DNA from: Amycolatopsis sp. EV170708-02-1
Lineage (GTDB): Bacteria; Actinomycetota; Actinomycetes; Mycobacteriales; Pseudonocardiaceae
Direction of reading: 5' to 3'
Length of the DNA stretch: 64,000 nt
NCBI RefSeq assembly: GCF_022479115.1
Contig: NZ_CP092497.1
Coordinates: forward strand, 4,154,001 to 4,218,000
Made by a program: the position numbers and the translations under genes
The notes under the pieces: generated by a model
Told to the model about the DNA's origin: nothing
The model's input: the letters and a program-made list of their open reading frames with translations, nothing else
Databases searched by the model: none
Shown here: piece by piece, positions 9,508-52,024 of the stretch
Position numbering within the stretch: the first letter of the stretch is position 1
Layout: the number at the start of each line of letters is the position of its first letter

Positions 9508-10263
9508 ATGAGTGTGTGGACTCATTGGCTGCGTTGCCGTGTACCCCGGCCGGCGGCCGAGGCGCGTTTGGTGTTACTGCCGCACGCAGGGGGTGCGGCG
9601 AGTTTCTATGGCGCTTGGGCGGCCGCCATGTCGCCCGTCTTGGAAGTCGTGACAGTGCAATACCCCGGTCGGGAAGATCGGCTGGCCGAACCCTTCACGA
9701 CGGGAATGGGCGCTCTCGCCGAAGATGTCGCCTCGGCATTGGTCGCGCAGGACGATCGGCCGACTGTCCTTTTCGGACATAGTCTTGGTGCGCTTGTCGC
9801 CTATGAGGTCGCCCGGATCCTGGAGTTCCGTCATTGCGTGACCCCCGCACGTCTGGTGGTGTCCGGACGGCGAGCACCATCGGATTCACCGGGCGGGGTG
9901 GTGCACTTGATGCCTGACGACGCCGTGATCAAGGAATTGATCGAGCTCGGCGGAACGAACGGGGACCTCCTGGCCGACCAGGACGCGCGATCGGTCTTCC
10001 TGCCCGCGATCCGTGAGGATTTCCGACTCGCCGAGACGTACCGGCACCTGCCTGGTATGGAGCCCAGTTGCCCCATCACTTCGGTGATCGGAAGCGAAGA
10101 CACCGAGGTGAGCACCGTGCAGGCGGAGCGCTGGGCCGACCACTCCACCGGGCCGTTCGACCTGAACATCCTGCCCGGAGGGCATTTCTATCTCTTGGAG
10201 CAGGCCGAGGCCGTGTTTGACATCCTCGCCCGGCCCATTCCCGCGAAGAGGGGCGACCAGTGA
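9508..10263 (+). CDS. type II thioesterase of the NRPS line
   Basis: Alpha/beta-hydrolase of 251 residues of the external editing thioesterase family, which clears mis-primed or stalled acyl groups from carrier domains. It has the N-terminal LVLLPHAGGAASFYG oxyanion motif, the nucleophile in GHSLGAL (about S92) and the catalytic histidine in GGHFYLL. It starts at ATG 9508 with GGAGGG about eight bases upstream, and is the first gene of the metallophore operon behind the iron box. The salicylate synthase start overlaps its stop by GTGA. Equivalent genes accompany the yersiniabactin and pyochelin systems. Confidence 0.92.
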   Translation: MSVWTHWLRCRVPRPAAEARLVLLPHAGGAASFYGAWAAAMSPVLEVVTVQYPGREDRLAEPFTTGMGALAEDVASALVAQDDRPTVLFGHSLGALVAYEVARILEFRHCVTPARLVVSGRRAPSDSPGGVVHLMPDDAVIKELIELGGTNGDLLADQDARSVFLPAIREDFRLAETYRHLPGMEPSCPITSVIGSEDTEVSTVQAERWADHSTGPFDLNILPGGHFYLLEQAEAVFDILARPIPAKRGDQ

Positions 10264-11597
10264 CAGTCGAACGTCGGATTTCGTTCGAGTCGGACGGCGT
10301 GGAGGTCGCGGCCGCGCTGGCCGCCGGCTCGGTCGAGCCACACGTGGTCTACGAGGGCAAGGATTCGGTGTGCTGGGCCGAGGGGGAGTTCGCGGTCGTC
10401 AGCGTGCGTGGATCGGGCGCGACTTTGATCGAGGACGGTAAGCGGACCGATTTCCCCCTGCGGCAGCCGCAGGCTGCCCTGGCCGAGGTTCTCGGCGCCA
10501 TCGCGATGCCGGAGTGGCGGGCTTACGGTTGGATCAGTTTCGAATGGAGTCACCTGTTGCACGGCGGTGTTCCGTCCGAGAGCGGCGGGCCGCTGGTCTA
10601 TTTGGCCGTTCCGCGACGCGAGATCCGGTTCGTGGACGGTGCGGCTACGTTGCGGGCGGCGAATGAGTCCGAATTGGACGATCTGGATGCCAGGCTTTCC
10701 CGGGCGGTCGCGGCGTCGGGAACGACGACGGCACCGGATCTGGTGATGATCGACGAACGCGAAGATCTGTCCGGGTATAGGGAGGCGGTGGCGCAAGCCG
10801 TGTCCGAGATCCGGGCAGGTTCACTGGACAAGGTGATCCTGTCCCGGGTCGTGCCGGTCGAGGAGGATCTCGACTTTCCCGCGACCTACGTGGCCGGTCG
10901 CAAGGGGAACGCTCCCGCGAGGTCTTTCCTGCTCCGCCTTGGCGGTTGGGAGGCGGCCGGATTCAGCCCGGAGATCGTCGCGGCGGTCGGCGCGGAAGGT
11001 GCGGTCAGGACTCAGCCGCTGGCGGGGACGCGGGCGTTCGATGGTGACTCGGTGCTCGACGTAGCACGTCGCGAGGAGTTGTACCGCGACGCCAAGGAGG
11101 TTTTCGAGCACGCCATCTCCGTTCGGCTCGCCGCGATGGAGATGGCAGGAGTGTGCGCGCCGGGAACGGTGCACGTCGCTGATTTCATGTCGGTCAAGGA
11201 ACGGGGGAGCGTGCAGCACCTCGCTTCGGACGTGGCGGGCACGCTGATGGGTGACCGAACGGCGTGGGACGCGCTGGGCGCGCTGTTCCCGGCTGTCACC
11301 GCGTCGGGAATCCCGAAAGCGTCGGCCTGCGAGGCCATCGGACGTATCGAGCCCAGCGGTCGCGGCCTCTACAGCGGCGCCGTGCTGACCATCGACTCTG
11401 CTGGGGAGCTGGATGCCGCTCTCGTGCTCCGCAGCGTTTTCCGCCGCGACGGACGCACGTGGTTGCGCGCGGGCGCGGGGATCGTGGCCGACTCCACTCC
11501 GAACCGGGAGTTCGAAGAGACGGTGGAAAAGTTGCGTAGCGTGTCGCGGTTCCTCGTGCCGTCCGCTCCCGCGCTCACCGCGGCGGCTGCGCGATGA
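10260..11597 (+). CDS. salicylate synthase (MbtI/Irp9-type)
   Basis: Converts chorismate to salicylate through isochorismate in one enzyme. The 445-residue chorismate-binding protein shows the family blocks KVILSRVVPV, GFSPEIVAAVG, QPLAGTRAF, VKERGSVQHLAS, TASGIPKASACEAI, GLYSGAV and AGAGIVADSTPNREFEET. No separate isochorismate-pyruvate lyase is present or needed. It is GTG-started and overlaps the thioesterase by four bases. Together with the salicyl-AMP ligase at 33228 and the N-terminal ArCP of NRPS-1 it supplies the aryl cap, a phenolate iron ligand. Confidence 0.93.
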   Translation: MTVERRISFESDGVEVAAALAAGSVEPHVVYEGKDSVCWAEGEFAVVSVRGSGATLIEDGKRTDFPLRQPQAALAEVLGAIAMPEWRAYGWISFEWSHLLHGGVPSESGGPLVYLAVPRREIRFVDGAATLRAANESELDDLDARLSRAVAASGTTTAPDLVMIDEREDLSGYREAVAQAVSEIRAGSLDKVILSRVVPVEEDLDFPATYVAGRKGNAPARSFLLRLGGWEAAGFSPEIVAAVGAEGAVRTQPLAGTRAFDGDSVLDVARREELYRDAKEVFEHAISVRLAAMEMAGVCAPGTVHVADFMSVKERGSVQHLASDVAGTLMGDRTAWDALGALFPAVTASGIPKASACEAIGRIEPSGRGLYSGAVLTIDSAGELDAALVLRSVFRRDGRTWLRAGAGIVADSTPNREFEETVEKLRSVSRFLVPSAPALTAAAAR

Positions 11598-12664
11598 CCC
11601 GAGTCGTGGTGGCGGGCACGGCGTTCGGACGGATCTACCTCGACGCGGTGGCCGGGAGTCCCGACTTCACCCTCGCGGGGGTGCTGGCCAGGGGAGGCGA
11701 CTACTCGCGAGCATGTGCGGCGCGCTACGGGGTTCCGCTGTTCGAGTCCGTCGACGAGGTTCCCGACGACGTGGACGTCGCTTGCGTGGTCGTCCGGTCC
11801 GGCGCCCTCGGCGGACCCGGAACCGAGCTCGCGCAAGCGTTCCTGCGGCGGGGCGTGCACGTCCTGCAGGAACATCCGGTACACAGCGGCGAGATCTCGG
11901 ACAACATCCGGGTCGCACGGGCGGGACGCGCGGCGTATGCGGTCAACACGCTGTACCCGAACCTCCGGCCGGTACGGCGGTTCCTGGCCGCCGTCGAAGT
12001 GCTGCGGAGCCGGCAACGGCTCGGCTTCATCGACGCCGCCTGCAACAGCCAGGTCGCCTACCCCCTGCTGGACGTTCTCGGCCGGATGACCGGTGGCCTA
12101 CGCCCGTGGGCTTTCGGCGAGGTGCACCGCGGGGACCGGCACCCCTTCTCGAGCCTGCACGCCGAAATCGGCGGCGTTCCGGTCACGCTGAGGGTGCAGA
12201 ACCAGGTTCACCCCGGAGACCCGGACAACCATTCGTACCTGCTGCACCGGATCTCCGTGGGTTGTGAGGGCGGCGTGCTGACCCTGGCCGACACCCACGG
12301 CCCGGTGCTGTGGAACCCGCGCCTGCACTCACCCCGGGACGAAACCGGGCGGCTCGTGATGGCCGGACCGGGTACCGAACGCCTGGACGTGCCGAGCACT
12401 GTCGTTCTCGGCGACGAACGACCCGGTACCTACCACCAGGTGTTCGCGGAGCTGTGGCCCGATGCCGTTTCGGAGAGTCTGCGGGTGTTGCGGCGGGACG
12501 CGGCCGACCGGAACCGGCGGACGGCGGCGGGGCAGTGGGCGCTGGGCGTTTCCCGGATGTGGAGCGATCTCACCGCTCGCATCGGGATGCCCGAACTGGT
12601 GGAGCCGCCGGAGCCCGAACCGATTCCGCTCGCCGATCTGGTCGCCATGAAGGAGATCGCGTGA
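11594..12664 (+). CDS. thiazolinyl imide reductase (Irp3/PchG-like)
   Basis: NADPH-dependent reductase that converts a carrier-bound thiazoline to a thiazolidine in yersiniabactin and pyochelin assembly. The 356-residue protein begins with a compact nucleotide-binding segment (VVVAGTAFGRIYL) and has the family block GVHVLQEHPVH near residue 95 and a Gfo/Idh-like C-terminal half. It overlaps its neighbours by ATGA and GTGA. Its presence implies that at least one of the three heterocycles is reduced. In known systems this is the second thiazoline, and here the target is undetermined. Confidence 0.9.
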   Translation: MTRVVVAGTAFGRIYLDAVAGSPDFTLAGVLARGGDYSRACAARYGVPLFESVDEVPDDVDVACVVVRSGALGGPGTELAQAFLRRGVHVLQEHPVHSGEISDNIRVARAGRAAYAVNTLYPNLRPVRRFLAAVEVLRSRQRLGFIDAACNSQVAYPLLDVLGRMTGGLRPWAFGEVHRGDRHPFSSLHAEIGGVPVTLRVQNQVHPGDPDNHSYLLHRISVGCEGGVLTLADTHGPVLWNPRLHSPRDETGRLVMAGPGTERLDVPSTVVLGDERPGTYHQVFAELWPDAVSESLRVLRRDAADRNRRTAAGQWALGVSRMWSDLTARIGMPELVEPPEPEPIPLADLVAMKEIA

Positions 12665-13308
12665 AGTGCAGCCACATTCTGCTCAAGGTCGACGATCTGC
12701 ATGAGGCGGTCGGAGACTTCCGGGAGCTCGGATTCACCGTCGACTACGCCTCCGAGGAGCGCAAGGCACGGCACGCCCATATCTGGTTCCGCTCTGGACC
12801 GATCCTCGAGCTGGTCACCACGCCGCCGGGGGCGTCGCTGATGACTTTGCCACTGAACCTGATGTTCGGTCGTGGCGCCGGCCGGCGAATGACCCGCTGG
12901 GCCCGCGCCGCCGAAGGATTCTGCGACGCGGCCGTGCTCGCCGGTCGCCACGAACTCAGGCGCGTCGGACGGGTCGTGGACTGGAAGCGCACCAAACGTG
13001 ATGGCTCCACGGCCAAGTTCGCCTTCACCTACCCCCGTCATGACCGGATCCCCTTCCTGGTCACTCCCTATGACCCGCCACAACATCCGCCGGACGTGGT
13101 GCACGTCAATGGTGCCCGGGGGGTGAGCCGCGTCGTCGTGGACGTCGCTCCCGCCGACCGGGCCGAGTTCGACCGGATCGCCGGCGACGATGGGGATTTC
13201 GAACTCCGCGACGCGGAAGTGACCGCGATTCGCGCGGTAGGCCTCGCCGGAGTGGCGAGAGCGCTCGACCCCGATCTGTCGCATGGCGCCGTCTTTCTGC
13301 CTCATTGA
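12661..13308 (+). CDS. VOC/glyoxalase-fold protein
   Basis: A protein of 215 residues whose N-terminal half (KCSHILLKVDDLHEAVGDF, then GFTVDY and HAHIWFRSGPILELV) matches the vicinal-oxygen-chelate fold. The C-terminal half repeats the pattern weakly (VNGARGVSRVVVDVAP). VOC proteins include metal-dependent isomerases and dioxygenases and drug-binding resistance proteins. No obvious His/Glu metal triad is complete by eye. It is GTG-started, overlaps the imide reductase gene and precedes the importer genes by 20 bases. A role in binding or self-protection against the metallophore, or in tailoring, is only an inference. Confidence 0.7.
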   Translation: MKCSHILLKVDDLHEAVGDFRELGFTVDYASEERKARHAHIWFRSGPILELVTTPPGASLMTLPLNLMFGRGAGRRMTRWARAAEGFCDAAVLAGRHELRRVGRVVDWKRTKRDGSTAKFAFTYPRHDRIPFLVTPYDPPQHPPDVVHVNGARGVSRVVVDVAPADRAEFDRIAGDDGDFELRDAEVTAIRAVGLAGVARALDPDLSHGAVFLPH

Positions 13309-13328
13309 CCCACACGGAGGAAATCCCC

Positions 13329-14882
13329 ATGTCCATCAACCGTCGTGTCCTGTTCCGGACGGCCGGGCTCGCGGCGGGCGCGGCAGGCGCCGGGGCGCTG
13401 CTCAACGCCTGCGGTGCGCCCACACCCGCGTCCGGACCGGTGGAGAACACCGGTCCCGTCGTAGCCCGGCAAGGAGGTGCCCTGCGCGCGGTCTTCACCG
13501 GCGGCGGGGCAGCCGAAAGCCTCGACCCGTTCGGCAGCGGCTCGCCCGCGGATTTCGTCCGTGGCGACGTCGTGTTCGATTCGCTGTTCACGTTGAGAGA
13601 AGGCGAGGCGGTGCCCGCCTTGGCCGACGAGGTGAGGGTCGATCCGGGTGCTACCTCATTCGTGGTGAAGCTGCGTGAGGGGGTGCAGTGGCACGACGGT
13701 TCGTCGTTCACCGCCGCCGACGTCGTGTACAGCTTCCGCTTCATGAGCTCTCCGGAGCGTGCCTACCCCAGCCAGCTCTCGGCGTACTTCGATTTCGACA
13801 ATGTCCAAATCCGCGACTCGCTCACCCTCGTGGTGCCCACTCGGCAGCCGGTAGGCGATCCGGCTCTGTTCTTGGCCGCGTTCCCCGGCAAGATGGTGAA
13901 GAACGGGGCCAGGTTCAGCGGCTCCACCGCGGTCGGCACCGGCGCGTACCAGATCGCGGCATTCGAGGCCGGCCGCGAGTCGCGCCTCAAACGGTTCGAC
14001 GGTCACTGGGCGGGCAAGGCCCCGGCGGACGAACTTGTATTGCTGAGCCTGGCCGACCCGCAGGCCAAGGTGAACGCGGTCGTCACCGGCCAGGCCGACT
14101 ACGCGGGCGACATCCCTTTCACCACAGGCAGGGCCGGTGTTCCCGGTAACGACTTCGAAGTCCGTACCGCGGGAGAGCGGAACCGGACGGCTTACGGCTG
14201 GATCCTCAACACGACCATCAAACCGTTCGACGATCCGCGGGCCCGCAAAGCGGTGAGGTTGGCCATCGCCCGGCAAGAGCTGGTGAACGCCGTCCTGCTG
14301 GGTTACGGGACACCTGGAAACGATCTGTTATGCGCAGGGGCCAAGTACTTCCTGTCACGTGCGCCGCTGGCTCGTGATGTCGACCAGGCCAGGAGGCTGG
14401 TCAAGGAATCAGGCGCGGACGCGGCGGAGATCGTGTTCCGCACCGCGGAGTGGGAAATCGGCTACAACGCGTCCACCCAGTTGCTCGCCGAGCAGCTCAA
14501 GGAGATCGGGCTGAAGGTCCGTGCGCAAGTCGTGAGCCCGCCGGAGTTCTTCGAGCCGAACGCGGTCGCGGCGGCCAACGCGGTCACGTTTTCCACCGGC
14601 GCGGTCCCGCTGGCGGTGATGTACGGCAGGCTCGGCGCCACGCCACCGCTCGCCCTGAAGGACAGCGAGTTCGCCGCCGCGTTCGGCAAAGCCATCGGCA
14701 GCGCGGACCAAGCCGGGCGGGCCAAGGCATGGGGCGCGGTCCAAGAAGTCATGTTCGACCGGGGCAACACCGTGGTCTGGGGTCAGGCCGACGTACTGAG
14801 CCTCGCGCGCAAGACCGTGGCGGGGATCGAGGTCCGTGATCAGGCCAAGTACCCGTACCTGGGCAAGGCCGGGCTTGCGTGA
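13329..14882 (+). CDS. ABC importer substrate-binding lipoprotein (Opp/Nik family)
   Basis: Extracytoplasmic binding protein of 517 residues, SBP family 5 (peptide/nickel). The signal peptide carries paired arginines (SINRRVLF) and a lipobox LNAC near residue 33, so it should be exported and lipid-anchored. Family landmarks include SLDPFGSGS, DEVRVDPGATSFVVKLREG (quoted for position about 105) and VGTGAYQIAAFE. It is followed by two permeases and a double ATPase in coupled order, giving a complete importer. Opp/Nik-type importers take up metal-metallophore complexes in the staphylopine (Cnt) system, so uptake of the product or its metal complex is the likeliest role here. Confidence 0.88.
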   Translation: MSINRRVLFRTAGLAAGAAGAGALLNACGAPTPASGPVENTGPVVARQGGALRAVFTGGGAAESLDPFGSGSPADFVRGDVVFDSLFTLREGEAVPALADEVRVDPGATSFVVKLREGVQWHDGSSFTAADVVYSFRFMSSPERAYPSQLSAYFDFDNVQIRDSLTLVVPTRQPVGDPALFLAAFPGKMVKNGARFSGSTAVGTGAYQIAAFEAGRESRLKRFDGHWAGKAPADELVLLSLADPQAKVNAVVTGQADYAGDIPFTTGRAGVPGNDFEVRTAGERNRTAYGWILNTTIKPFDDPRARKAVRLAIARQELVNAVLLGYGTPGNDLLCAGAKYFLSRAPLARDVDQARRLVKESGADAAEIVFRTAEWEIGYNASTQLLAEQLKEIGLKVRAQVVSPPEFFEPNAVAAANAVTFSTGAVPLAVMYGRLGATPPLALKDSEFAAAFGKAIGSADQAGRAKAWGAVQEVMFDRGNTVVWGQADVLSLARKTVAGIEVRDQAKYPYLGKAGLA

Positions 14883-15826
14883 TCCGTTCCTTGCCGCGAC
14901 GGCTCTCGTCCGGCGTCGTCCTGTTGGCGCTGCTGACTTTCGTCGTCTACGTCGGGGTCGATCTGCTGCCCGGTGATCCGGTCACCAGCAGGCTCGGCCC
15001 GAGCACTCCGCCCACGCGGATCGCCGAACTCCGGCACCATCTCGGTCTCGACCGTCCTGTGCTCACTCGCTACGGCGAGTGGGTCGCGGGCCTGTTCCGT
15101 GGTGAACTGGGCACTTCGGCGGCCGGACGTCCGGTCGTGGAAATGCTCTCCGATCGGGTCGGTAACTCGGCTCTCCTCGCCGCGATCGCGATGCTTCTGC
15201 TCGCTCCGCTGTCGCTCGCGTTCGGACTTTGGGCGGCGTGGCGACGAGGCCGGGCGGCCGACAGGCTCGTGTCGGCTGGAGCGCTCCTGGTGGTGTCGGT
15301 GCCGGAGTTCGTCGTGGCAGGCGCGCTGGTGCTGTTGTTCGCGGTGAGCCTGAGGATGTTTCCCGCGGTGTCGCTGCTGCCGATCGATGCCGGGCCGCTG
15401 GCACATCCCGAAATACTCGTGCTGCCCGTGCTCAGCCTGCTGCTGGCGGGACTTGCCTACGCGGTGCGGGTCATCCGCGCGTCGGCGTCTACCGCGCTGG
15501 AGAGCTCACATGTGGAGTTCCTGCGACTCGGCGGCGCGCCCGGCACGACGGTGTTCCGTCGTGCCGTCGTCCCGGCGGTCCTGCCTGTCGCGGTGCAGGT
15601 TTGGCTGGTGACCGGGGTCGCCTTCGTCGGAGGGGCGGTGCTGGTGGAGAAGGTGTTCGGTTACCCCGGCATCGGGGAGTTGCTGGTCACGTCCGTCCAG
15701 TCCGGGGATCTTCCGGTGGTTCAGGCCCTCGTGCTGATCCTCGGCGCGGCGATGCTGGCGGCCCTCATACTCGCTGACCTCTCCGTGGTACTGCTGACGC
15801 CGAGGCTGCGGACGGGCGCCCTGTGA
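14879..15826 (+). CDS. ABC importer permease (DppB/NikB-type)
   Basis: Inner-membrane permease of 315 residues with the expected N-terminal membrane segment, a large loop containing LGPSTPPTRIAELRHHLGLDRP, five further hydrophobic segments and a cytoplasmic EAA-like loop (ASTALESSHVEFLRLGGAPG) that contacts the ATPase. It starts at GTG and overlaps both neighbours by four bases. With the permease at 15823 it forms the channel of the Opp/Nik-type importer whose binding protein precedes it. Confidence 0.9.
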   Translation: MIRSLPRRLSSGVVLLALLTFVVYVGVDLLPGDPVTSRLGPSTPPTRIAELRHHLGLDRPVLTRYGEWVAGLFRGELGTSAAGRPVVEMLSDRVGNSALLAAIAMLLLAPLSLAFGLWAAWRRGRAADRLVSAGALLVVSVPEFVVAGALVLLFAVSLRMFPAVSLLPIDAGPLAHPEILVLPVLSLLLAGLAYAVRVIRASASTALESSHVEFLRLGGAPGTTVFRRAVVPAVLPVAVQVWLVTGVAFVGGAVLVEKVFGYPGIGELLVTSVQSGDLPVVQALVLILGAAMLAALILADLSVVLLTPRLRTGAL

Positions 15827-16611
15827 CCAGGCTCAAAGGGATCGTGTTCGGCCTCGCCGTGCTGGCCGTCCTTTTCGGACCGCTCGTGGCGCCGTACTCG
15901 CCGACAGCGCCGGTCGGTCCGCCGTTCTCTCCACCGGGCGCGGCGGGATTGCTCGGTACCGACCAGCTTGGGCGGGATGTCTTCTCCCGGCTTCTCCATG
16001 GCGGCAGGCCGATGCTGCTCACCAGCGCGCTCGCCGCGCTGATCGGTTCGGCGGCAGGGGTGGCCGTCGGACTGTTCGTCGCGCTCGCCGCGCCCGGCAG
16101 ACGCTGGGTGGAAGCGGTCGTCGCGCGCCCGCTGGACCTGCTCGCCGCCGTTCCGCCGATCCTGGTGCTGCTGCTGGTGCTCACGGCACTGCCGAACCGG
16201 GCGGGGATCGTGATGGCGGTCGCGCTTTCGAGTGTCCCGCTCTCGGCCCGGATCACCAGGGCAGCGGGGGAACAGGTGACCGGCCGCGCCCATGTCGAAG
16301 TGGCGATCGCCCGTGGCGAGAGCTGGACGTGGCTGGTGGGACGCGAGGTGCTGCCCTTGGTGGCGGGCACCGTCTTGGCCGACTTCGGCATCCGCTTCGT
16401 CACGGCCGTCCACCTGGTCGCCGCGGCGGGCTTTCTCGGACTCGGCACTTCGGCTTCGGATTGGGGACTGCTGATCGTGGAAGCGCTGCCGGGAGCGGCT
16501 TTGCAGCCGTGGGCGTTGCTGGCCCCAGTGGCAGGCATCGCGCTCGTCGCGGTGACGGCCAACCTCGCTTCCGACGGGCTGGCTCGTCGCTCGAGGGGGG
16601 TGCTCGGATGA
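15823..16611 (+). CDS. ABC importer permease (DppC/NikC-type)
   Basis: Second permease, 262 residues. It has the DppC hallmark LLGTDQLGRDVFSRLLHGGR near residue 45, five to six membrane segments and an EAA-like loop (ITRAAGEQVTGRAHVEVA). It is slightly shorter than typical DppC because the N-terminal extension is reduced. GTG start, overlapping the preceding permease and the following ATPase gene. Partner of the permease at 14879. Confidence 0.9.
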   Translation: MTRLKGIVFGLAVLAVLFGPLVAPYSPTAPVGPPFSPPGAAGLLGTDQLGRDVFSRLLHGGRPMLLTSALAALIGSAAGVAVGLFVALAAPGRRWVEAVVARPLDLLAAVPPILVLLLVLTALPNRAGIVMAVALSSVPLSARITRAAGEQVTGRAHVEVAIARGESWTWLVGREVLPLVAGTVLADFGIRFVTAVHLVAAAGFLGLGTSASDWGLLIVEALPGAALQPWALLAPVAGIALVAVTANLASDGLARRSRGVLG

Positions 16612-30150: not shown

Positions 30151-30161
30151 GGACAACGATC

Positions 30162-32003: not shown

Positions 32004-32028
32004 ACCGTTGCACTACAAGGAGAACACC

Positions 32029-33231
32029 ATGACCACCACAGGACCGCTCGCACTCGGCGAGGACTTCGTGCAGAACGCGCACGGTGTCGGAGCGACGCTG
32101 CGCGAGAGCGCACCGATCCGCCATGTCGTACTGCCCAGCGGCCTGCCCGTCTGGCTTGTCACCGGGTACGAGGAAGCCAGAGCCGTCGCGACCGACCCCA
32201 GATTCAGCAGCCAGCGCGTCTACGACCGGATGCACCGGATGGCGCTGGGCGAGGACGACGAGAGTCCTTTTTCCGACGACTTCGCGATGAACCTGCTCAA
32301 CCTGGACCCGCCGGATCACACCCGGCTGCGCAAACTGGTCGCGAAGACCTTCACCGGCCGGGCCATCGCGCCGCTGCGGCCGCGGATCGAGCAGATCGCG
32401 GACGAGCTGCTCGACGCGATGACCGGTCGCGAGTCGGTGGAGTTGCTGGAGGCCTACGCCTACCCGCTGCCGATCCGGGTCATCACCGAACTGCTGGGTG
32501 TGCCGTTCGAGGACCGCGACGAGTTCACGTCGTGGTCCAAGACGATGGTCGACGGCGGCGCGACCGAGGCTGCGGGCGCGGCGACCATGCGGATGGCGGG
32601 CTACCTGCACGGACTGATCGCGGCCAAACGGGAGACTCCCGCCGACGATCTGCTCTCGCGGTTGGTGCACGCCAGTGAAGACGGCGACCGGCTGTCGCCG
32701 TCGGAGCTGATCGCGGTTTCGGTCGTGCTGCTCATCGGCGGTTTCGAAACCACGGTGAATCTGATCAGCGGCGGCGTCCTCAGCCTGTCCCGGTACCCCG
32801 ACCAGCTCGCGCTGCTGCGGGCCGACCGGAGCTTGATGCCGAACGCGATCGAGGAGTTCCTGCGGCACGAGACGCCGAACATCCTGTCTTCGCCGCGGTA
32901 CACCATCGAAGAGGTCGAGATCGCGGGAGTGGTGATCCCGGCCGGGGACTTCGCCATGGTGTCGTGGCTGGCGGCGAATCGCGACCCGGCCCGCTTCGCC
33001 GACCCCGACCGGCTCGACATCACCCGGCCGATGGGCGGGCACCTCGCTTTCGGCCACGGCCTGCACTTCTGCCTCGGCGCGCCCTTGGCCCGGCTGGAGG
33101 GCGAGATCGCCTTCGGACGCCTGCTGGACCGGTTCGCCGAGATCGAGGTGTTGTCCGCGGTGGACGATCTCCGCTGGCGCGACAGCACGGCCATGCACGG
33201 CCTCGAATCGTTGGTGCTGAGGCTACGATGA
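32029..33231 (+). CDS. cytochrome P450
   Basis: Soluble bacterial P450 of 400 residues. It has the I-helix LIGGFETTVN, K-helix EFLRHE (ExxR) and heme-binding FGHGLHFCLGAPLAR with the axial cysteine. ATG 32029 has AAGGAG about six bases upstream, and the stop overlaps the ligase start. The P450 needs a ferredoxin and reductase that are not in the window. Possible roles are hydroxylation of the aryl cap or oxidation of a thiazoline to a thiazole. The coelibactin cluster of Streptomyces also contains a P450. Substrate not deducible. Confidence 0.93.
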   Translation: MTTTGPLALGEDFVQNAHGVGATLRESAPIRHVVLPSGLPVWLVTGYEEARAVATDPRFSSQRVYDRMHRMALGEDDESPFSDDFAMNLLNLDPPDHTRLRKLVAKTFTGRAIAPLRPRIEQIADELLDAMTGRESVELLEAYAYPLPIRVITELLGVPFEDRDEFTSWSKTMVDGGATEAAGAATMRMAGYLHGLIAAKRETPADDLLSRLVHASEDGDRLSPSELIAVSVVLLIGGFETTVNLISGGVLSLSRYPDQLALLRADRSLMPNAIEEFLRHETPNILSSPRYTIEEVEIAGVVIPAGDFAMVSWLAANRDPARFADPDRLDITRPMGGHLAFGHGLHFCLGAPLARLEGEIAFGRLLDRFAEIEVLSAVDDLRWRDSTAMHGLESLVLRLR

Positions 33232-34799
33232 CCACCGACTTCACCCCGTGGCCGGATGAGTTCGCCCGGCACTACCGTGCACGCGGATACTGGCGTGACC
33301 GTACGCTCGGCGCGTTGCTCGACGACGGCGCACGGAGGTGGCCGGCGCGGACGGCGGTCGTCGACGGCGACCGGCGCTGGTCTTATGCCGAGCTGAACGA
33401 AAAGGCGAACCGGCTGGCCTGTGGGCTCCGAACGCGGGGGATCGGACACGGCGACCGCGTGCTTGTGCATCTGCCCAACGTGGCCGAGTTCCTGTCGCTC
33501 GCGTTCGCGCTGTTTCGGATCGGAGCCGTTCCGGTGCTCGCCCTGCCATCGCATCGCCGGACCGAGATCATCCACCTCGCCAGGCTTTCGGCCCCTGCGG
33601 CGTACGTCGTTGCCTCCGAATCGCGGGATTTGGCGTATGCCGTCCCGGAGATCGAGCATGTGTTCGTCGTCGGAGACCCCGGCGAGTTCACCGCGCTGGA
33701 CGACGTGGCGGCCGATGGTGATCCGGGCGACGGCCCGGGGCCGGGCTACATCGCGGTGTTGTTGCTGTCCGGCGGTACGACCGGGTTACCCAAGCTGATC
33801 CCGCGAACCCACAACGACTACGACTACAACCTGCGGGCGAGTGCCAAGCTGTGCGGTTTCAATGCGGACACCCGATACTTGGCCGCGCTGCCGATGGCGC
33901 ACAACTTCCCGCTCGCCTGCCCCGGCGTCCTGGGGACGTTGTGGGCGGGCGGAACGGTCGTGCTGAGTGTGGACGCCGCCCCCGAATCGGTGTTTTCGCT
34001 GATCCAGGCCGAGCGTGTCACCACGACGGCGCTCGTGCCGCCGCTGGCGCTCGTGTGGCTGGACGCCGCGGAGGAGTCCGCAGAGGACCTGTCGAGCCTG
34101 GCGCTGCTCCAGGTCGGTGGGGCCCGGCTCAAGGCCGAAACCGCCCGGCGGGTCATTCCGGTGCTGGGCTGCGCGCTCCAGCAGGTCTACGGCATGGCTG
34201 AAGGCCTGCTGAACTACACGCGCTTCGGCGATCCGGACGCCATCGTCACCGACACCCAGGGCCGTCCGCTCAGCGCCGATGACGAGGTGCGGATCGTAAC
34301 CGCCGACGGCGATCCGGTGCCTGCGGGCGAGGTGGGCGAGCTCCACGTCCGGGGCCCCTACACCATTCGCGGCTATTACCGTGCCGCCGAACACAATGCG
34401 GGCGCCTTCACCTCCGACGGCTACTACCGCAGTGGTGACCTCGTCCGCCGTCTGCCGACTGGGGAACTCGTCGTCGAGGGCCGGGTCAAGGACGTGATCA
34501 ACCGCGGTGGAGACAAGATCCCCGTCGAAGAGGTGGAGAACCTGCTCCTGAGTCACCCCGCCGTGCACGACGTCGCGGTCGTCGGCCTTCCCGACGACGT
34601 GATGGGTGAACGAAGCTGTGCCTATGTCATCGCGCGTGGCACACCTCCCAGCCGCAAGGACCTCGTAGTGCACCTGACCCGACTCGGCGTCGCCGCCTTC
34701 AAGCTGCCGGACCGGGTCCGGTTCGTGGACGCTTTCCCCCGCACCGGCCTCGGCAAGATCGACCGCAACGCTCTGTCCACTTTGGAGACCAAGTCGTGA
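33228..34799 (+). CDS. salicyl-AMP ligase (YbtE/MbtA/DhbE-type)
   Basis: Stand-alone aryl adenylating enzyme of 523 residues that activates salicylate and loads it onto the ArCP of NRPS-1. Motifs: LLSGGTTGLPKLIPRTHNDY near residue 180 with the TTG-P-K phosphate loop, VYGMAEGLLNYTR, GYYRSGDLVRRLPTGE, GRVKDVINRGGDKIPVEEVE and the C-terminal lysine in GLGKIDRNAL. The HNDYDYN segment is characteristic of the aryl-acid subfamily. It overlaps both neighbours (ATGA, GTGA), directly upstream of its carrier partner. Confidence 0.93.
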   Translation: MTTDFTPWPDEFARHYRARGYWRDRTLGALLDDGARRWPARTAVVDGDRRWSYAELNEKANRLACGLRTRGIGHGDRVLVHLPNVAEFLSLAFALFRIGAVPVLALPSHRRTEIIHLARLSAPAAYVVASESRDLAYAVPEIEHVFVVGDPGEFTALDDVAADGDPGDGPGPGYIAVLLLSGGTTGLPKLIPRTHNDYDYNLRASAKLCGFNADTRYLAALPMAHNFPLACPGVLGTLWAGGTVVLSVDAAPESVFSLIQAERVTTTALVPPLALVWLDAAEESAEDLSSLALLQVGGARLKAETARRVIPVLGCALQQVYGMAEGLLNYTRFGDPDAIVTDTQGRPLSADDEVRIVTADGDPVPAGEVGELHVRGPYTIRGYYRAAEHNAGAFTSDGYYRSGDLVRRLPTGELVVEGRVKDVINRGGDKIPVEEVENLLLSHPAVHDVAVVGLPDDVMGERSCAYVIARGTPPSRKDLVVHLTRLGVAAFKLPDRVRFVDAFPRTGLGKIDRNALSTLETKS

Positions 34800-37700
34800 C
34801 CAAGCAACAACTGCCTGCGCTGATCGCCGATCTCGTCGACATCCCCGCCGAGGCGATCGACGAGCACGAGAACCTGATCGAGCTCGGCCTGGACTCGATC
34901 ACCATGATGCGGTTGGCAGGCAACTGGCGCAAAGCCGGGGTGAACGTCACGTTCGCCGATCTGGTCGCCACGCCCACGCTCGCCGCGTGGCGCGCCCTGC
35001 TGGCTGTCGAATCCGGACAGATCACCCGGCATACCAAGGAAATCGACGACTCCGCGACGTTCCCGCTGGCCCTTATGCAGCACGCCTACTGGGTCGGCCG
35101 CGCGCCGGGACAACGGCTGGGCGGTGTCGACGCGCACTTCTACCACGAGTTCGACGGCGCGGACGTCGATCCGGAACGGCTTGAGATCGCTGTCCGGGCA
35201 CTGTTCGCCCGGCACGGGATGCTGCGCGTGGCGGTACTGGACGACGGAACCCAGCGGGTCCTCGCCGAGGCTCCGTGGCCGGGTCTCAAGGTCCACCCTT
35301 GGGTGGATCAGTCCACATTGGACGAACGACGGGCCGCGCTTTCGCACCGAAGGATGGACATCGCCTCCGGTGAGGTCTTCGATGTCCAGCTGTCCCTGCT
35401 GCCGGAAGGCCGTACGCGGGTACACGTCAGCCTGGACATGATCGCCGCGGACGCGTTGAGCCTGCGTGTGCTGCTCGCTGATCTGGCCCGCGCCTACGAA
35501 GGTGAGGCGCTGCCCCCGCTGGGCTACAGCTACCCGCGGTATCTGGCCGAGCGCGGGAGCGATGACCAGGGCGACGCGCGCGAGTATTGGGCCGAAAGGT
35601 TGCCCACGCTTCCCGGAGCGCCTCAGCTTCCGGCCTCCGACGTCGGCGGCGAGCCCACCGTGGTACGGCATCACCGATGGCTGGGACCCGAATCCGTGAG
35701 AGCGCTCGAGCGCTCGGCCCGTCGTCACGGGCTCACCACCGCGATGGCGTTGGCGGCGGCCTTCGCCGAGACACTGACGGCCTGGAGCGCCGAACCGCGT
35801 TTCCTGCTCAATCTCCCCCTGTTCGACCGCCAGCCGCTGCACGACGAGGTGGACTGTCTGGTCGGCGACTTCACCTCGTCGGTGCTCCTTGAGTGGGATG
35901 GAGCCGCGCCCGGCTCGTTCGCCGACCGGGCGTCGTTGTTGCAGCAGCGGTTCCACGCCGACGTGGCCCACACCGGCTACTCCGGTGTCGAGGTGCTGCG
36001 CGACCTATCCCGTCTGCACGGCGAACAAGTGCTCGCGCCGGTCGTCTACACCAGCGCACTCGGCCTTGACGAACTGTTCGCCCCCGAGGTTACCGACACC
36101 TTCGGCGAGGCGGCCTGGATCATCTCCCAGGGGCCGCAGGTGTGGCTCGACGCGCAGGTGACCGAACTCGGCGGCGGTCTGCTGATCAACTGGGACATCC
36201 GTGAAGACGCCTTCATTCCCGGCGTACCGGACGCGATGTTCGCCGCCTACAGCGCACTGCTCGACCGGCTCATCGAGAACGAAGACGCCTGGACGGGTAC
36301 CACGGACCTGATCCCGCGAGCACAACTGCGCGTACGCGCCGAGGTCAACGACACGTCGGTCGTCAGACACCCACGGTGTTTGCACGACAGGTTCTTCTCC
36401 AACGCCGCCGCATATCCCGACGCGCCGGCCGTGCTCTCCGACGGAGGGAGCATCACCTATGGCGACCTCGCCGCGCGTGCTCTCCGGCTCGCTGGCCACC
36501 TGACCGCGAAGGGGATAGGTCCAGGAGACCTGGTCGCGGTGTCGCTGCCCAAGGGGCCGGATCAGGTGATCGCGGTGCTCGGTGTGCTCGCCACGGGCGC
36601 CGCGTACTTGCCGATAGGCGTGGATCAACCGGCCGCGCGCCGCGAACGAATCCTGGCGAACGCCGACGTGAGCCTGCTTCTGGACGACCTCACCCCGTCG
36701 GACGGGGCACAACCGCTCGCTGAACCTGTGAGCGCTGACGCTTCCTCTCTCGCCTACGTCATCTACACGTCGGGATCGACCGGCGAGCCGAAGGGTGTGG
36801 AGATCACCCACACCGCCGCAGTCAACACTGTCGACGACCTCAACCATCGCTTCGGTATCGGGCCACAGGACCGGACACTGGCGCTGTCGGCGCTGGAGTT
36901 CGATTTGTCGGTATATGACCTCTTCGGTCCGCTGTCGGCAGGCGGTGCGGTGGTGTGTGTTCGCGATTCCGGGCGCCGTGACGCCTCCGGGTGGGTCGAC
37001 CTGCTGGTGCGGCACCGGGCCACTGTGCTCAATTGCGTCCCCGCGCTCCTCGACATGGTGCTGACTGTCGCGCAAGAGCCCATGCCACTGCGCGTGGTGC
37101 TGCTCGGTGGTGACCGGGTCACCACCGACCTGCCCGCTCGGCTCGCCGAACACGCGCCCGACTGCCGTTTCATCGGGCTGGGTGGGACCACCGAGACGGC
37201 GATCCATTCCACGGTGTGCGAGGTCGGCACCGTCGATCCACAATGGACCTGCGTGCCGTACGGCACACCGCTGGGCAACGTCCGGTGCCGAGTGGTCGAT
37301 ACTCTCGGCCGCGACCGCCCGGACTGGGTGCCAGGAGAGTTGTGGATAGGCGGGGCGGGCGTGGCGCGCGGCTACCGGGGCGATCCCGTGCGCACACAGG
37401 AGAAGTTCGTCGAGTTCTCCGGCGTGCGCTGGTATCGGACCGGTGACCGCGCGAGGTACACGCCCGACGGAGGACTGGACTTTCTCGGCCGCGACGACCA
37501 CCAAGTGAAGATCCGCGGCCACCGGGTCGAACTCGGCGAGGTCGAGGCGGCACTGACCGCGCATCCCGGCGTCACCGCCGCCGTGGCGGTCGTGACAGCG
37601 GGTCGCAGGCTGGCCGTCGCCGTGACCGGGGCCGTGGACACGCTGGTGCTGAAGGACTTCGTGACAGACCTGTTGCCGGCGCCGATGCGGCCTGACGTCA

Positions 37701-40700
37701 TCTCGGCGTTTGCGTCCCTGCCGCTGACCGCGAACGGCAAGATCGATCGAGCACTGTTGTCGCGCACCCTGGACGACCGGCGCGATGAAGCCGTGGTGGT
37801 CGCGGCACCCGCCGGTGAGGTCGAACGGCTGGTCGCGGCAGCGTGGTCGGACGTGTTGCGGTGCGGGGAAGTCGGTCGTGAGCAAGACTTCTTCACGCTC
37901 GGTGGTGACTCTCTGCTGGCGACCAAGGTGATCGGCAGACTGCGGGCCGCCGGAGTGTCCGGCGTGTCGCTGAGCGACCTTTTCGCCCGTCCGGTGCTGT
38001 CCGATTTAGCCGTCGGACTCACGCTGTCCGACAGCGAAGGTATGCCTGCGGCTCTTGCCACCGACCCGGCGAACCGGTATGAACCGTTCCCGCCGACCGA
38101 AGTCCAGCGCGCGTATTGGCTCGGCCGGGACGAGGGCTTCACCCTCGGAGGCGTCGGTTGCCACTTCTATCGCGAGTACGACGTGGACGATCTCGACCTG
38201 CCTCGGTTGGAGGCGGCGATCAACCGGCTCGTCCGGCGGCACGAGATGTTGCGTGCCGTTTTCGATGAGCGCGGCGATCAGCGGGTGCTACCCGAGGTGC
38301 CGTGGTTCCAGGTGGAACTGATCGGCGGTGGGTTCGATGAACTTCGCGCCACCACCTCGCACACCGTGTTCGACCCGGCGGTGTGGCCGCTGTTCACCGT
38401 GCGCGCCGCCCGGGCCGGCCGCCGGACCAGGCTGGCGGTCGGGATGGACAACCTGGTGCTCGACGCCCTGAGCATCCTGGTCTTCTACGCGGAACTGGCG
38501 TCGCTGTACCAGGATCCGGACATCGAACTCCCGCCGATCGGGGTGTCGTTTCGTGACTACGTGCTCGGCGTCGAGCGCGCGGGGCTGGACCGGGCTGAGG
38601 CCTACTGGACCGGGCTGCTGCCGGACCTGCCGCCCGCACCGCGGCTGCCGCTGGCGAAGGACCCCGCGGACGTGGCGGTTCCCCGGTTCGAGCGGCGTTC
38701 GGCGACGATCGAAGCGGCGCGGTGGCGCGTGATCGTGGACCGGGCCAGAGAACAGGGGCTGACGCCGTCCGCCGTACTGCTGACCGCGTTCGCCGAGGTG
38801 CTCGGTCTCTGGAGTGCGCGGGCGGACCTGACACTGAACGTCACCCTTTTCGATCGCAAGGAAGTCCACCCTGACATCGACCGAGTACTCGGTGACTTCA
38901 CCTCGTTGCTGTTGGTGGCCTGTCGGCCCACCCCGGACGGCGGGTGGCTCGACCGGGTGCGCCAGGTCCAGGAGGAGTTGTGGGGTGCGCTCGACCACCG
39001 TGACGTCTCGGCCGTATGGGTGATGCGCGAGCTGGCTCGGACCAATGGAGACCCGAACACGACCATGCCGGTCGTGTTCACCAGCGCGCTGGGTGTCTCG
39101 GCGGACCCACCCGAGGGCAGCACCCTGTTCGCCGACAACGTCTGGGGTGTCTCCCAAACACCACAGGTGTGGCTCGATCACCAGGTCACCGAGGTCGAGG
39201 GCGGTGTCCGGCTGAATTGGGACGCGGTGGAGGAGCTGTTCCCGCTCGGCCTGCTGGATGACATGTTCGAGGCATACCTGTCCCTGGTGGACTGGCTCGC
39301 TACGGCTTCGTGGCGAGCACACGTCCCTGATCTGCTGCCCGCCCGGCAGTACGACGTCCGCGCCGTGGTGAACGAGACCGGCGGCGTCGTCCCCGAAGGT
39401 GCGTTGCACAGCGACTTCTTCCGGCTGGCCGCCGAGCGGCCGGACCGGGTGGCGGTCGTCGGCGCGCTGACCTACGGCGAGCTTGCCGACCGTGCGCTCC
39501 GGCTGGCGGCTGTGCTCGGCGAGCGAGGTGCGGCACCCGGTGACACCGTTGCCATTTCGCTGCCGAAGGGGCCTGGCCAGCTCGTGGCGGTGCTCGGAGT
39601 ACTGGCCGCCGGGTGCACTTATGTGCCTATCGGTGTCGACCAGCCTCCAGCTCGTCAGGCCCGGATGCGCGGTCTCGCGGGAGCCGATCTGGTCGTCACA
39701 GAGGATTTGCTCGCCGTGGCGGCCGACCCGCTGCCCACGTGTCTTCCACCCGCGGACCTGGCTTATGTGATCTTCACGTCGGGCTCGACCGGTGAGCCCA
39801 AGGGAGTCGAGACGACCCATCGCGCTGCACTGAACACGGTCGCCGATATCAATGAGCGCTTCGCAATCGGCCCCGGCGACCGGCTGCTGGCGGTGTCCGC
39901 ACTCGACTTCGACCTGTCCGTGTATGACATCTTCGGCCCGCTGTCGGTCGGCGGAGCCGTTGTCACGATCGGCGAAGACGATCGCCGCGATGCACACCGC
40001 TGGCACGACCTGGTCACCACACACGGCGTCACGGTCTGGAATACCGTCCCGGCACTACTCGACATGCTCCTTGTCGCCACCACAGGGCGGCTGCCGTTAC
40101 GAGTCGTGCTGGTGTCCGGCGACTGGGTCGGCCTCAACCTGCCGGGCAGCCTGGCCACGGCCGCCCCGACCTGCCGGTTCATCGCGCTGGGCGGAGCGAC
40201 GGAGGCGGCGATCTGGTCCAACTTCACCGAGGTCGACCATGTCGACCCCGCGTGGATCTCCATCCCTTATGGCACCCCTCTGCGTAACCAGCGGTTCCGC
40301 GTCGTGGACGATCTCGGCCGCGATTGCCCAGATTGGAGCACTGGCGAACTCTGGATCGGCGGTGAAGGTGTTGCGCGCGGCTATCGGAGCGCGCCTGAGC
40401 AAACAGCCGCTCAATTCGTCGAAGGCCCGTCGAGTGACCGCTGGTACCGCACTGGAGACCTCGGCCGCTACTGGCCGGATGGCACTCTGGAGTTTCTCGG
40501 ACGGGCCGACCAGCAGGTGAAGATCCGCGGCCACCGCATCGAGCTCGGCGAGATCGAAGCGGCGCTCGAGGCCGCGCCGGGCGTCGTCCGCGCGGCGGTC
40601 GCCGTGACCGCGGATCGCCGCCTGATCGCGGCTGCGGTGGCCGAGACTTCCAGTGAGCTGATCCGGTCTCACACGGCGACACTGCTTCCCGCTCACATGC

Positions 40701-41077
40701 TCCCGGAGCAGGTCGCCGTGGTGGAAACCTTGCCACTCACCGGCAACGGCAAAGTCGACCGCGCCGCGATCGCGGCCCTTGCCCGACCGGCAGACCATGC
40801 CGGCTCAACCGCGCCAACGGGAGCGGCGGAGACGGCGGTCGCGGGCATATGGGCCGATCTGCTCGGACTCGACCACATCGGCCGCGAACAGAACTTCTTC
40901 ACCCTCGGTGGGGACAGTCTGCGTGCCACCAAACTCATCTCGATGCTGCGCGGCAGGTTCGGCGTCACTCTGTCACTTTCCGCCCTGTACGCGGCGCCGA
41001 CGATCGAAGCCGTCGCGCGCACCGTGTCAGCTCGGATCGCGATCGACGAGGAGATGGAAGAAGGAATCGTCTATTGA
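34796..41077 (+). CDS. NRPS-1: ArCP-Cy-A-PCP-Cy-A-PCP
   Basis: Loading and first two extension modules, 2093 residues. ArCP has its serine in LGLDSITMM near residue 34. Cy1 is about 85-500 (DMIAADALS) and A1 about 525-985 (YVIYTSGSTGEPKG). PCP1 is GGDSLLATK near 1035, Cy2 about 1095-1515 (DNLVLDALS), A2 about 1530-1995 and PCP2 GGDSLRATK near 2037. Both condensation-type domains are cyclising (DxxxxDxxS). A2 reads D-L-Y-N-L-S-L-I-W-K, the cysteine code. A1 reads D-L-Y-N-L-G-L-I-H-K, with two changes that make it closer to threonine pockets. No epimerase or embedded MT. GTG start overlapping the ligase stop. The chain passes to the Cy domain of NRPS-2. Confidence 0.92.
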   Translation: MTKQQLPALIADLVDIPAEAIDEHENLIELGLDSITMMRLAGNWRKAGVNVTFADLVATPTLAAWRALLAVESGQITRHTKEIDDSATFPLALMQHAYWVGRAPGQRLGGVDAHFYHEFDGADVDPERLEIAVRALFARHGMLRVAVLDDGTQRVLAEAPWPGLKVHPWVDQSTLDERRAALSHRRMDIASGEVFDVQLSLLPEGRTRVHVSLDMIAADALSLRVLLADLARAYEGEALPPLGYSYPRYLAERGSDDQGDAREYWAERLPTLPGAPQLPASDVGGEPTVVRHHRWLGPESVRALERSARRHGLTTAMALAAAFAETLTAWSAEPRFLLNLPLFDRQPLHDEVDCLVGDFTSSVLLEWDGAAPGSFADRASLLQQRFHADVAHTGYSGVEVLRDLSRLHGEQVLAPVVYTSALGLDELFAPEVTDTFGEAAWIISQGPQVWLDAQVTELGGGLLINWDIREDAFIPGVPDAMFAAYSALLDRLIENEDAWTGTTDLIPRAQLRVRAEVNDTSVVRHPRCLHDRFFSNAAAYPDAPAVLSDGGSITYGDLAARALRLAGHLTAKGIGPGDLVAVSLPKGPDQVIAVLGVLATGAAYLPIGVDQPAARRERILANADVSLLLDDLTPSDGAQPLAEPVSADASSLAYVIYTSGSTGEPKGVEITHTAAVNTVDDLNHRFGIGPQDRTLALSALEFDLSVYDLFGPLSAGGAVVCVRDSGRRDASGWVDLLVRHRATVLNCVPALLDMVLTVAQEPMPLRVVLLGGDRVTTDLPARLAEHAPDCRFIGLGGTTETAIHSTVCEVGTVDPQWTCVPYGTPLGNVRCRVVDTLGRDRPDWVPGELWIGGAGVARGYRGDPVRTQEKFVEFSGVRWYRTGDRARYTPDGGLDFLGRDDHQVKIRGHRVELGEVEAALTAHPGVTAAVAVVTAGRRLAVAVTGAVDTLVLKDFVTDLLPAPMRPDVISAFASLPLTANGKIDRALLSRTLDDRRDEAVVVAAPAGEVERLVAAAWSDVLRCGEVGREQDFFTLGGDSLLATKVIGRLRAAGVSGVSLSDLFARPVLSDLAVGLTLSDSEGMPAALATDPANRYEPFPPTEVQRAYWLGRDEGFTLGGVGCHFYREYDVDDLDLPRLEAAINRLVRRHEMLRAVFDERGDQRVLPEVPWFQVELIGGGFDELRATTSHTVFDPAVWPLFTVRAARAGRRTRLAVGMDNLVLDALSILVFYAELASLYQDPDIELPPIGVSFRDYVLGVERAGLDRAEAYWTGLLPDLPPAPRLPLAKDPADVAVPRFERRSATIEAARWRVIVDRAREQGLTPSAVLLTAFAEVLGLWSARADLTLNVTLFDRKEVHPDIDRVLGDFTSLLLVACRPTPDGGWLDRVRQVQEELWGALDHRDVSAVWVMRELARTNGDPNTTMPVVFTSALGVSADPPEGSTLFADNVWGVSQTPQVWLDHQVTEVEGGVRLNWDAVEELFPLGLLDDMFEAYLSLVDWLATASWRAHVPDLLPARQYDVRAVVNETGGVVPEGALHSDFFRLAAERPDRVAVVGALTYGELADRALRLAAVLGERGAAPGDTVAISLPKGPGQLVAVLGVLAAGCTYVPIGVDQPPARQARMRGLAGADLVVTEDLLAVAADPLPTCLPPADLAYVIFTSGSTGEPKGVETTHRAALNTVADINERFAIGPGDRLLAVSALDFDLSVYDIFGPLSVGGAVVTIGEDDRRDAHRWHDLVTTHGVTVWNTVPALLDMLLVATTGRLPLRVVLVSGDWVGLNLPGSLATAAPTCRFIALGGATEAAIWSNFTEVDHVDPAWISIPYGTPLRNQRFRVVDDLGRDCPDWSTGELWIGGEGVARGYRSAPEQTAAQFVEGPSSDRWYRTGDLGRYWPDGTLEFLGRADQQVKIRGHRIELGEIEAALEAAPGVVRAAVAVTADRRLIAAAVAETSSELIRSHTATLLPAHMLPEQVAVVETLPLTGNGKVDRAAIAALARPADHAGSTAPTGAAETAVAGIWADLLGLDHIGREQNFFTLGGDSLRATKLISMLRGRFGVTLSLSALYAAPTIEAVARTVSARIAIDEEMEEGIVY

Positions 41078-51996: not shown

Positions 51997-52024
51997 GGGG
52001 CGGAATCCATTTCGTCAGATCCGA

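Follow-up and report, generated by a model that had tools for sequence, protein, structure and literature searches.

An AsnB and cytochrome P450 pair in a sorangibactin/coelibactin-class metallophore cluster of Amycolatopsis

The operon and its metallophore class

We examined a 64,000-nucleotide stretch of the genome of Amycolatopsis sp. EV170708-02-1 (a single contig of 9.66 Mb), referred to here as the window, in which 17 genes running in a single direction form one operon at 9508-41077 (Table 1). By gene content and architecture, this operon is a metallophore cluster of the sorangibactin/coelibactin class; it is well supported that the new element is a variant, within this known class, with an adjacent pair of genes that encode an AsnB-type glutamine amidotransferase and a cytochrome P450 (P450-a). 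The genes overlap by 4 bases at 13 of the 16 junctions. One exception, between the vicinal oxygen chelate (VOC) protein and the solute-binding protein, turns into an overlap of 4 bases with a TTG start; the other two flank AsnB, with gaps of 11 bases on one side and of 4 or 25 bases on the other (AsnB start at 30162, Cys being residue 2). With two of the three exceptions at its borders, AsnB looks like an insertion among otherwise closely linked genes.

The domain layout given in a preliminary description of this DNA is borne out by Pfam domains and cyclization motifs. One non-ribosomal peptide synthetase (NRPS), NRPS-A, has an aryl carrier protein (ArCP) followed by two sets of heterocyclization (Cy), adenylation (A) and peptidyl carrier protein (PCP) domains, and NRPS-B has the order Cy-A(MT)-PCP-TE, with an embedded methyltransferase (MT) and a thioesterase (TE). 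Pfam labels the condensation domains of both proteins as Condensation only; all three contain, in translation, the DxxxxDxxS string, which we take to be the cyclization motif of Cy domains, and the condensation domain of NRPS-B matches solved heterocyclization domains. Three heterocyclization modules are thus spread over two NRPS. The salicylate synthase and the thiazolinyl imide reductase named in the same description both exceed their NCBIfam cut-offs; the salicyl-AMP ligase does resemble the model for 2,3-dihydroxybenzoate (DHB)-AMP ligases, yet scores below the cut-off of that model, and salicylate is its presumed substrate. The AsnB, VOC protein, P450, double methyltransferase and Rossmann reductase are all present in the one coupled operon. 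To these we add a four-gene uptake system at 13305-18128 (an SBP_bac_5 protein, two permeases and a fused double ATPase), two ATP-binding cassette (ABC) half-transporters, a stand-alone thioesterase and putative metal-response boxes upstream of 9508. The second half-transporter matches YbtQ and IrtB over nearly its full length, although eukaryotic P-glycoprotein-type chains score above both (up to 395), over two stretches.

Yersiniabactin and pyochelin share with the window a salicyl cap, Cy-A-PCP modules, a thiazolinyl imide reductase and YbtPQ-type half-transporters, but we know of no saccharopine-dehydrogenase-like (SDH) or AsnB gene in either. Yersiniabactin assembly includes one polyketide synthase (PKS) module, and pyochelin has two rings; in the Pfam scan, neither NRPS-A nor NRPS-B contains a PKS domain, so the cluster is not of the yersiniabactin type. 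Its earlier placement as a salicyl-capped, all-NRPS, three-module metallophore nearest the coelibactin type is supported. To our knowledge, isolation of coelibactin has so far been unsuccessful, and sorangibactin is the only member of the class with a solved structure.

Sorangibactin, a salicyl-oxazole-bis(N-methylthiazolidine)-homocysteine thiolactone, is the isolated product of the srb cluster (accession OQ368584) of Sorangiineae strain MSr11367. This cluster shares with the window a salicylate synthase, a salicyl ligase, an NRPS pair of seven and five domains, a Cys-TE, the SDH-like SrbE, the methyltransferases SrbF and SrbG, a P450 (SrbH), the Irp3-like SrbI, the VOC protein SrbJ, a stand-alone hydrolase and transporters (PMC10127202). 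SrbF and SrbG are two methyltransferases, while the window has one double protein that appears to be like SrbF and SrbG fused. AsnB is not among the srb genes named in the available text (PMC10127202), and the window P450 is of the AsnB-linked lineage, a probable further difference from srb. The coelibactin cluster of Streptomyces coelicolor (SCO7676-7692) shares metal transport genes, two NRPS, a P450 and ABC transporters (PMC3430247) as well as an SDH-like gene, but, unlike the window, it is without a VOC protein (PMC10127202); the word ‘asparagine’ is absent from the available part of the coelibactin account (PMC3430247), whereas the window has AsnB.

A scan anchored on the SDH gene gave 88 loci, of which 80 were kept; these are mainly from actinobacteria, with others from Pseudomonas, Magnetospirillum and Paracoccus, and an SDH match at E ≤1e-15 occurs in 32 of 397 genomes of the order. 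We call clusters that share the window's gene order around SDH main-type. One of them (G069) has all 17 genes in unchanged order at 78-92% identity, and Amycolatopsis decaplanina DSM 44594 (G466) has 16 of the 17 in unchanged order, with the stand-alone thioesterase in the next stretch. Given the sorangibactin set and these widespread relatives, most of the tailoring set is not unusual, contrary to the preliminary description: the SDH-like reductase, the methyltransferases acting in trans, the VOC protein and a P450 are also in the sorangibactin cluster, and it is AsnB, with the P450 beside it, that differs. The product, which that description could not match to a known compound, is still without a match, but the cluster type is no orphan, sorangibactin having already been isolated. 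Among titles and abstract openings from literature searches, we found no published case of AsnB in such a cluster. Further literature drawn on comprises PMC5719088, PMC13122635, PMC12161575, PMC12971057 and PMC6103462.

A deeper SDH-bearing branch (L176-L188, from Actinomadura, Nocardiopsis, Saccharothrix and others) has methyltransferase or NRPS-like matches and often an importer. The Irp3-type reductase match is missing in 12 of these 13 loci within the stretch examined (L183 has one), and the branch is possibly another metallophore type.

Table 1. Genes of the operon and boxes ahead of it, in window coordinates
Feature	Position	Strand	Evidence and remarks
IdeR/DmdR-type iron box TTAGGTGAGGCTAATCTAA	9279..9297	+	putative; 2 mismatches to consensus
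Zur-like box TGAAAGTGACTATCA	9420..9434	+	weak; 2 mismatches to TGANAANNNTTNTCA; shuffle p 0.094
Stand-alone (type II) thioesterase, SrbA-like	9508..10263	+	Pfam Thioesterase, 167 bits
Salicylate synthase	10260..11597	+	NCBIfam TIGR03494, 458 bits (cut-off 325)
Thiazolinyl imide reductase, Irp3/SrbI type	11594..12664	+	TIGR01761, 326 (cut-off 189); Irp3-like_C
VOC/glyoxalase_3 protein, SrbJ-like	12661..13308	+	Pfam PF13468 (scan from earlier in-frame start 12310)
Solute-binding protein SBP_bac_5	13305..14882	+	PF00496, 190 bits; start 13305 TTG or 13329 ATG
ABC importer permease 1	14879..15826	+	Pfam BPD_transp_1
ABC importer permease 2	15823..16611	+	Pfam BPD_transp_1
ABC importer ATPase, two fused ATPase domains	16608..18128	+	two ABC_tran stretches (scan from 16329)
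NRPS-B, TubC_N docking-Cy-A(MT)-PCP-TE	18125..23323	+	Pfam (scan from 17966); TE nucleophile Cys, GYCLGG
ABC half-transporter 1	23320..25119	+	Pfam ABC_membrane and ABC_tran
ABC half-transporter 2, YbtQ/IrtB-like	25116..26861	+	YbtQ 344 bits, IrtB 321 bits
SDH-like reductase, SrbE position	26858..27856	+	predicted C=N reductase
Double methyltransferase, two S-adenosylmethionine domains	27853..30150	+	two Methyltransf_12 stretches (scan from 27601)
AsnB-type glutamine amidotransferase, cluster-specific lineage	30162..32003	+	Asn_synthase and GATase_7
Cytochrome P450-a, AsnB partner	32008..33231	+	p450 (scan from 31690); start 32008 TTG or 32029 ATG
Salicyl-AMP ligase	33228..34799	+	DHB_AMP_lig, 672 bits (DHB cut-off 724)
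NRPS-A, ArCP-Cy-A1-PCP-Cy-A2-PCP	34796..41077	+	Pfam

The AsnB/P450-a pair in related genomes

AsnB and P450-a are adjacent in every locus in which we found the pair (15 of 15), comprising 11 main-type clusters, two pairs that lie off the cluster and two Saccharopolyspora spinosa-type clusters, in which the order of the two genes is reversed. Part of this neighborhood check, on 80 of the 88 loci, extended up to 10 kb from the SDH gene and would have missed a more distant AsnB. AsnB matches at E ≤1e-140 occur in 248 of 390 family genomes (three candidates scored per genome), and identities of 75-100% in at least 11 genomes, our own included; the others among the matches listed are at most 69% identical, and a second copy in the same genome, also among those listed, is 63% identical. 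In the AsnB tree, a clade with support of 100/98 unites the 13 cluster-type sequences, among them those of two Streptomyces loci, 21 ordinary rows (20 different) stand apart (100/99), two S. spinosa-type sequences branch separately, and TsnB9 of the trichostatin pathway lies outside all other groups as a long outgroup. The P450 tree resolves a lineage a of 15 rows (94/95) and a lineage b of 11 rows (99/99). P450-b, which adjoins NRPS-A in relatives, is absent from the window; six clusters keep both P450s, and A. jejuensis has P450-b in addition to the pair, while P450-a is the only one in the window, G069, G466, G632 and S. alkaliphilus (within the 10 kb seen). The window AsnB keeps its MCGI start and SGGLDS motif intact. 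Cluster-type and ordinary AsnBs differ at 20 positions, one of which (Ser to Phe, residue 380) is inside the GExADE motif, which hints at an acceptor other than aspartate.

The pair does not always remain with the cluster. In a midpoint-rooted tree of both ABC half-transporters from 17 clusters, four pair-less actinobacterial clusters (two Amycolatopsis, two Lentzea) group together inside the actinobacterial clade, with support of 94/94, slightly below the level starred by the tool. Two of the four, Amycolatopsis G055 and Lentzea flava (G582, identical to G711), have the pair elsewhere in the genome (L091-L092 on contig C2 and L093 on contig C97, respectively), whereas cluster-type AsnB was not found in A. 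orientalis DSM 40040 or L. atacamensis. The displaced AsnB and P450 are 91 and 90% identical to those of the window in G055 and 84 and 88% in Lentzea flava, and the AsnB tree groups both displaced copies with the window AsnB; the G055 cluster is only 54-73% identical to the window cluster outside the P450. In both genomes the pair has probably been regained by horizontal transfer, which is the simplest reading.

No other window gene had a match near the displaced pairs in the stretches fetched, apart from two partial ones: a 32% ligase-like match ∼12 kb from the pair in G055, and, on a 15.6 kb Lentzea flava contig, a match at 52% to part of the stand-alone thioesterase (residues 152-241) ∼0.6 kb from the pair, which is perhaps a remnant of a cluster. 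The remaining neighbors were listed as frames, without a family search. Neither displaced pair has an iron box, and the only Zur-like strings there are weak (p 0.06 and 0.078). P450-a and AsnB may change the end group, and strains with the pair, without it and with a displaced pair all exist. It is possible, although we consider it doubtful, that the two genes are a portable cassette that modifies a thiazolidine metallophore under joint iron and zinc control, adding an amide-derived, possibly N-oxidized and hydroxamate-like, ligand. On this reading the cassette has been lost from one sub-clade of clusters and then regained by horizontal transfer, unlinked from the cluster, and a single assembly line could switch metal preference or escape piracy through the gain or loss of the two genes.

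A string at 9063-9092, just before the promoter, resembles a tRNA 3′ end with its T-arm and CCA; at this site ARAGORN makes no tRNA call. Integration at a tRNA was rejected, the string having no second copy in the window, or in the genome at ≤1 mismatch.

Putative metal-response boxes

The iron box ahead of the operon is expected 0 times in the shuffled window, and at ≤2 mismatches it is found at six places in the genome, that in the window included; a reversed-pattern control gave none. Of the five other boxes, one adjoins an isochorismate synthase gene, three adjoin genes for proteins of the Peripla_BP_2, SIP and DUF2470 families, one each, and the last lies by a frame with no Pfam match, based on Pfam scans of one or two hand-chosen frames per box. 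The best iron box of the genome (L189, G000:C1:2310744) precedes a second chorismate-binding enzyme, which probably marks a separate locus for a salicylate- or catecholate-type siderophore. The Zur-like box lies 88 bases upstream of the first gene. A strict Zur pattern, TGAAAATNATTTTCA, was rejected as a guide: it has two window matches at 3 mismatches, one of which (5027) is far from the operon, and no match in the genome at ≤1 mismatch.

Both boxes recur in actinobacterial clusters with the window's gene order. Counting the window, a Zur-like box is found in 15 of 15 such clusters (among the 14 others, with 0-1 mismatches in 12 and 2 in two), and 13 of the 15 have an iron box at ≤5 mismatches, which no shuffle equalled in those 13. 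In the ten main-type clusters searched over the 300 bases ahead of the first-gene match, the Zur-like box has 0-2 mismatches in all ten (shuffle p 0 to 0.094) and the iron box ≤4 mismatches in nine, with 0 of 1000 shuffles as good. In five further actinobacterial main-type clusters, searched over 1.5 kb ahead of the salicylate synthase match, the corresponding counts are 5 of 5 (0-1 mismatch) and 4 of 5 (≤5 mismatches). The Magnetospirillum cluster has neither box; Pseudomonas khavaziana has no salicylate synthase match, which left the search without a starting point; and no Zur box turned up in either S. spinosa-type region, one of which has a poor match to the iron box (6 mismatches, p 0.021). 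A link between the iron box and the AsnB/P450-a pair was rejected because A. orientalis and both Lentzea clusters, which are without the pair in the cluster, carry the box.

Sorangibactin is induced by iron limitation (PMC10127202), and coelibactin in S. coelicolor is under Zur control, with DmdR1 sites not recovered in the available account. A Zur-controlled metallophore would not be new in Amycolatopsis, since ethylenediaminedisuccinate (EDDS) in A. japonicum is described as under Zur. Judging from the boxes, Zur and an iron repressor (IdeR/DmdR) probably both repress the window operon, and we infer the metal choice of its product with the same caution. With boxes of both kinds in actinobacterial members, the split between sorangibactin with iron and coelibactin with zinc may reflect which box each lineage has kept.

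Proposed assembly, alternatives and other window features

The A-domain codes, read by hand from motif strings, are DLYNLSLIW for A2 of NRPS-A and for A3 of NRPS-B, and DLYNLGLIH for A1. We take the first to be a Cys code, presuming the usual scheme of code positions. The A1 type (..TTETA[IV]H) is present in all 13 main-type clusters with module 1 in reach (which leaves aside L111, L120, L125 and L128), with F in place of Y at the third code position in three of them. The ‘three cyclised cysteines’ of the preliminary description are therefore doubtful, module 1 being without a Cys code and a Cys-derived ring 1 unsupported. For the first A domain of sorangibactin, software predicted Cys, yet labelled serine was incorporated (PMC10127202), which favors Ser over Cys as the expected substrate of window module 1.

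The model of the SDH-like reductase has the fold of a C=N reductase; NCBIfam has no match to the window member and scattered matches across the SDH family, none of them in more than 2 of 16 members. In pyochelin and yersiniabactin, a single thiazolidine is accompanied by a single Irp3-type reductase. Sorangibactin contains two thiazolidines, and its cluster encodes both the Irp3-type and the SDH-like enzyme (PMC10127202). On this model, the SDH-like protein may be a second thiazoline reductase, a candidate role for the so far unexplained SrbE-type enzyme. The Cys-TE motif is present in 17 of 17 clusters of the window's gene order, and the motif script picked up none in eight more distant loci. 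For sorangibactin, a free amino acid, homocysteine, is the proposed nucleophile for release by the Cys-TE (PMC10127202).

We think it fairly likely, reading from sequence, that the operon makes a salicyl-capped sorangibactin/coelibactin-class metallophore, with AsnB and P450-a as an added coupled step and with repression by iron and Zur. Salicylate would be synthesized, activated and loaded on the NRPS; module 1 would add Ser or Cys, giving an oxazoline or a thiazoline, and modules 2 and 3 two Cys rings. One thiazoline would be a substrate of the Irp3-type enzyme and the other of the SDH-like reductase, N-methylation would be performed by the embedded and the double methyltransferases, and the Cys-thioesterase would release the chain, with homocysteine perhaps the acceptor as for sorangibactin. 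As a coupled pair, P450-a and AsnB would carry out the extra step, AsnB forming a carboxamide from a free carboxylate of the product, either the C-terminal one or one that P450-a generates, and P450-a oxidizing before or after it. The metallophore would be re-imported by one or both ABC systems.

Several points weigh against this proposal. The AsnB sequence points to no particular acceptor, and should the thioesterase release a thiolactone, AsnB would have no evident free carboxylate to act on. Judged solely by gene position, P450-b could be the counterpart of SrbH, the P450 that dehydrogenates the first ring in sorangibactin. The iron box is missing in G055 and Streptomyces ISL-12, and the shuffle p of the Zur match exceeds 0.05 in the window (0.094) and in G466 (0.082). 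Finally, a 21-base Zur form (PMC5472717) has three matches in the genome, the window's own Zur box not among them; only one lies by a recognizable zinc-type transporter (a divergent, Znu-like ABC-3/ATPase pair), and the frames scanned at the other two have no Pfam match.

The role of AsnB might instead be confined to providing the amino acid for release by the Cys-TE, either asparagine or another nucleophile in amidated form, with P450-a then oxidizing the scaffold. The Cys-TE is common to sorangibactin, with its proposed amino acid nucleophile, and AsnB retains the glutaminase Cys2 and the SGGLDS and FGGY letters of ordinary AsnBs; however, this would leave the constant adjacency and co-travel of AsnB and P450-a unexplained, the TE motif is unchanged in clusters without AsnB, and Phe380 sets the cluster type apart from ordinary AsnBs. 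We regard this alternative as unlikely.

AsnB could also be a hydroxyamidotransferase like TsnB9, likewise an AsnB-type amidotransferase in a natural-product pathway, which would make a terminal hydroxamate, a strong iron-binding group that suits a metallophore, with glutamyl hydroxamate as donor. TsnB9 (7YLZ) is indeed the best PDB match of AsnB, at 705 bits versus 162 for E. coli AsnB, a TsnB9-type enzyme takes benzoic acid (PMC13418202), and the genome encodes four proteins of the AurF type, the family of TsnB7 according to the available account. However, the window AsnB shares 52.6% identity with TsnB9, against 52-55% for ordinary AsnBs of the family, the GExADE..FGGY motif has the ordinary Gly and Tyr in the window but Ala and His in TsnB9, and all four AurF matches are outside the window, which, in contrast to the TsnB9 system, has no AurF-type gene. 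This reading was demoted because of the AsnB tree and seems very unlikely; with AsnB no nearer to TsnB9 than ordinary AsnBs are, the carboxamide is the default. A plain coelibactin-like zincophore under Zur alone, with the iron box a chance match, would fit the Zur-like box in all 15 clusters and the S. coelicolor account, but is very unlikely given the iron box in 13 of 15 without an equal shuffle, its placement by iron-type genes in this genome and its greater strength in the window compared with the Zur box.

Elsewhere, Rfam gave no match in the window at the gathering threshold, and comparison with viral contigs gave 17 stretches, none confirmed. ARAGORN calls a tRNA-Arg of 96 bases at 63762-63857, close to the end of the window in GC-rich sequence that looks coding, and the call is probably false. 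On the strand opposite to the operon, at 50455-53527, a pyridoxal-phosphate-dependent decarboxylase lies beside a flavin amine oxidase, and the two may make up a separate, small amine pathway.

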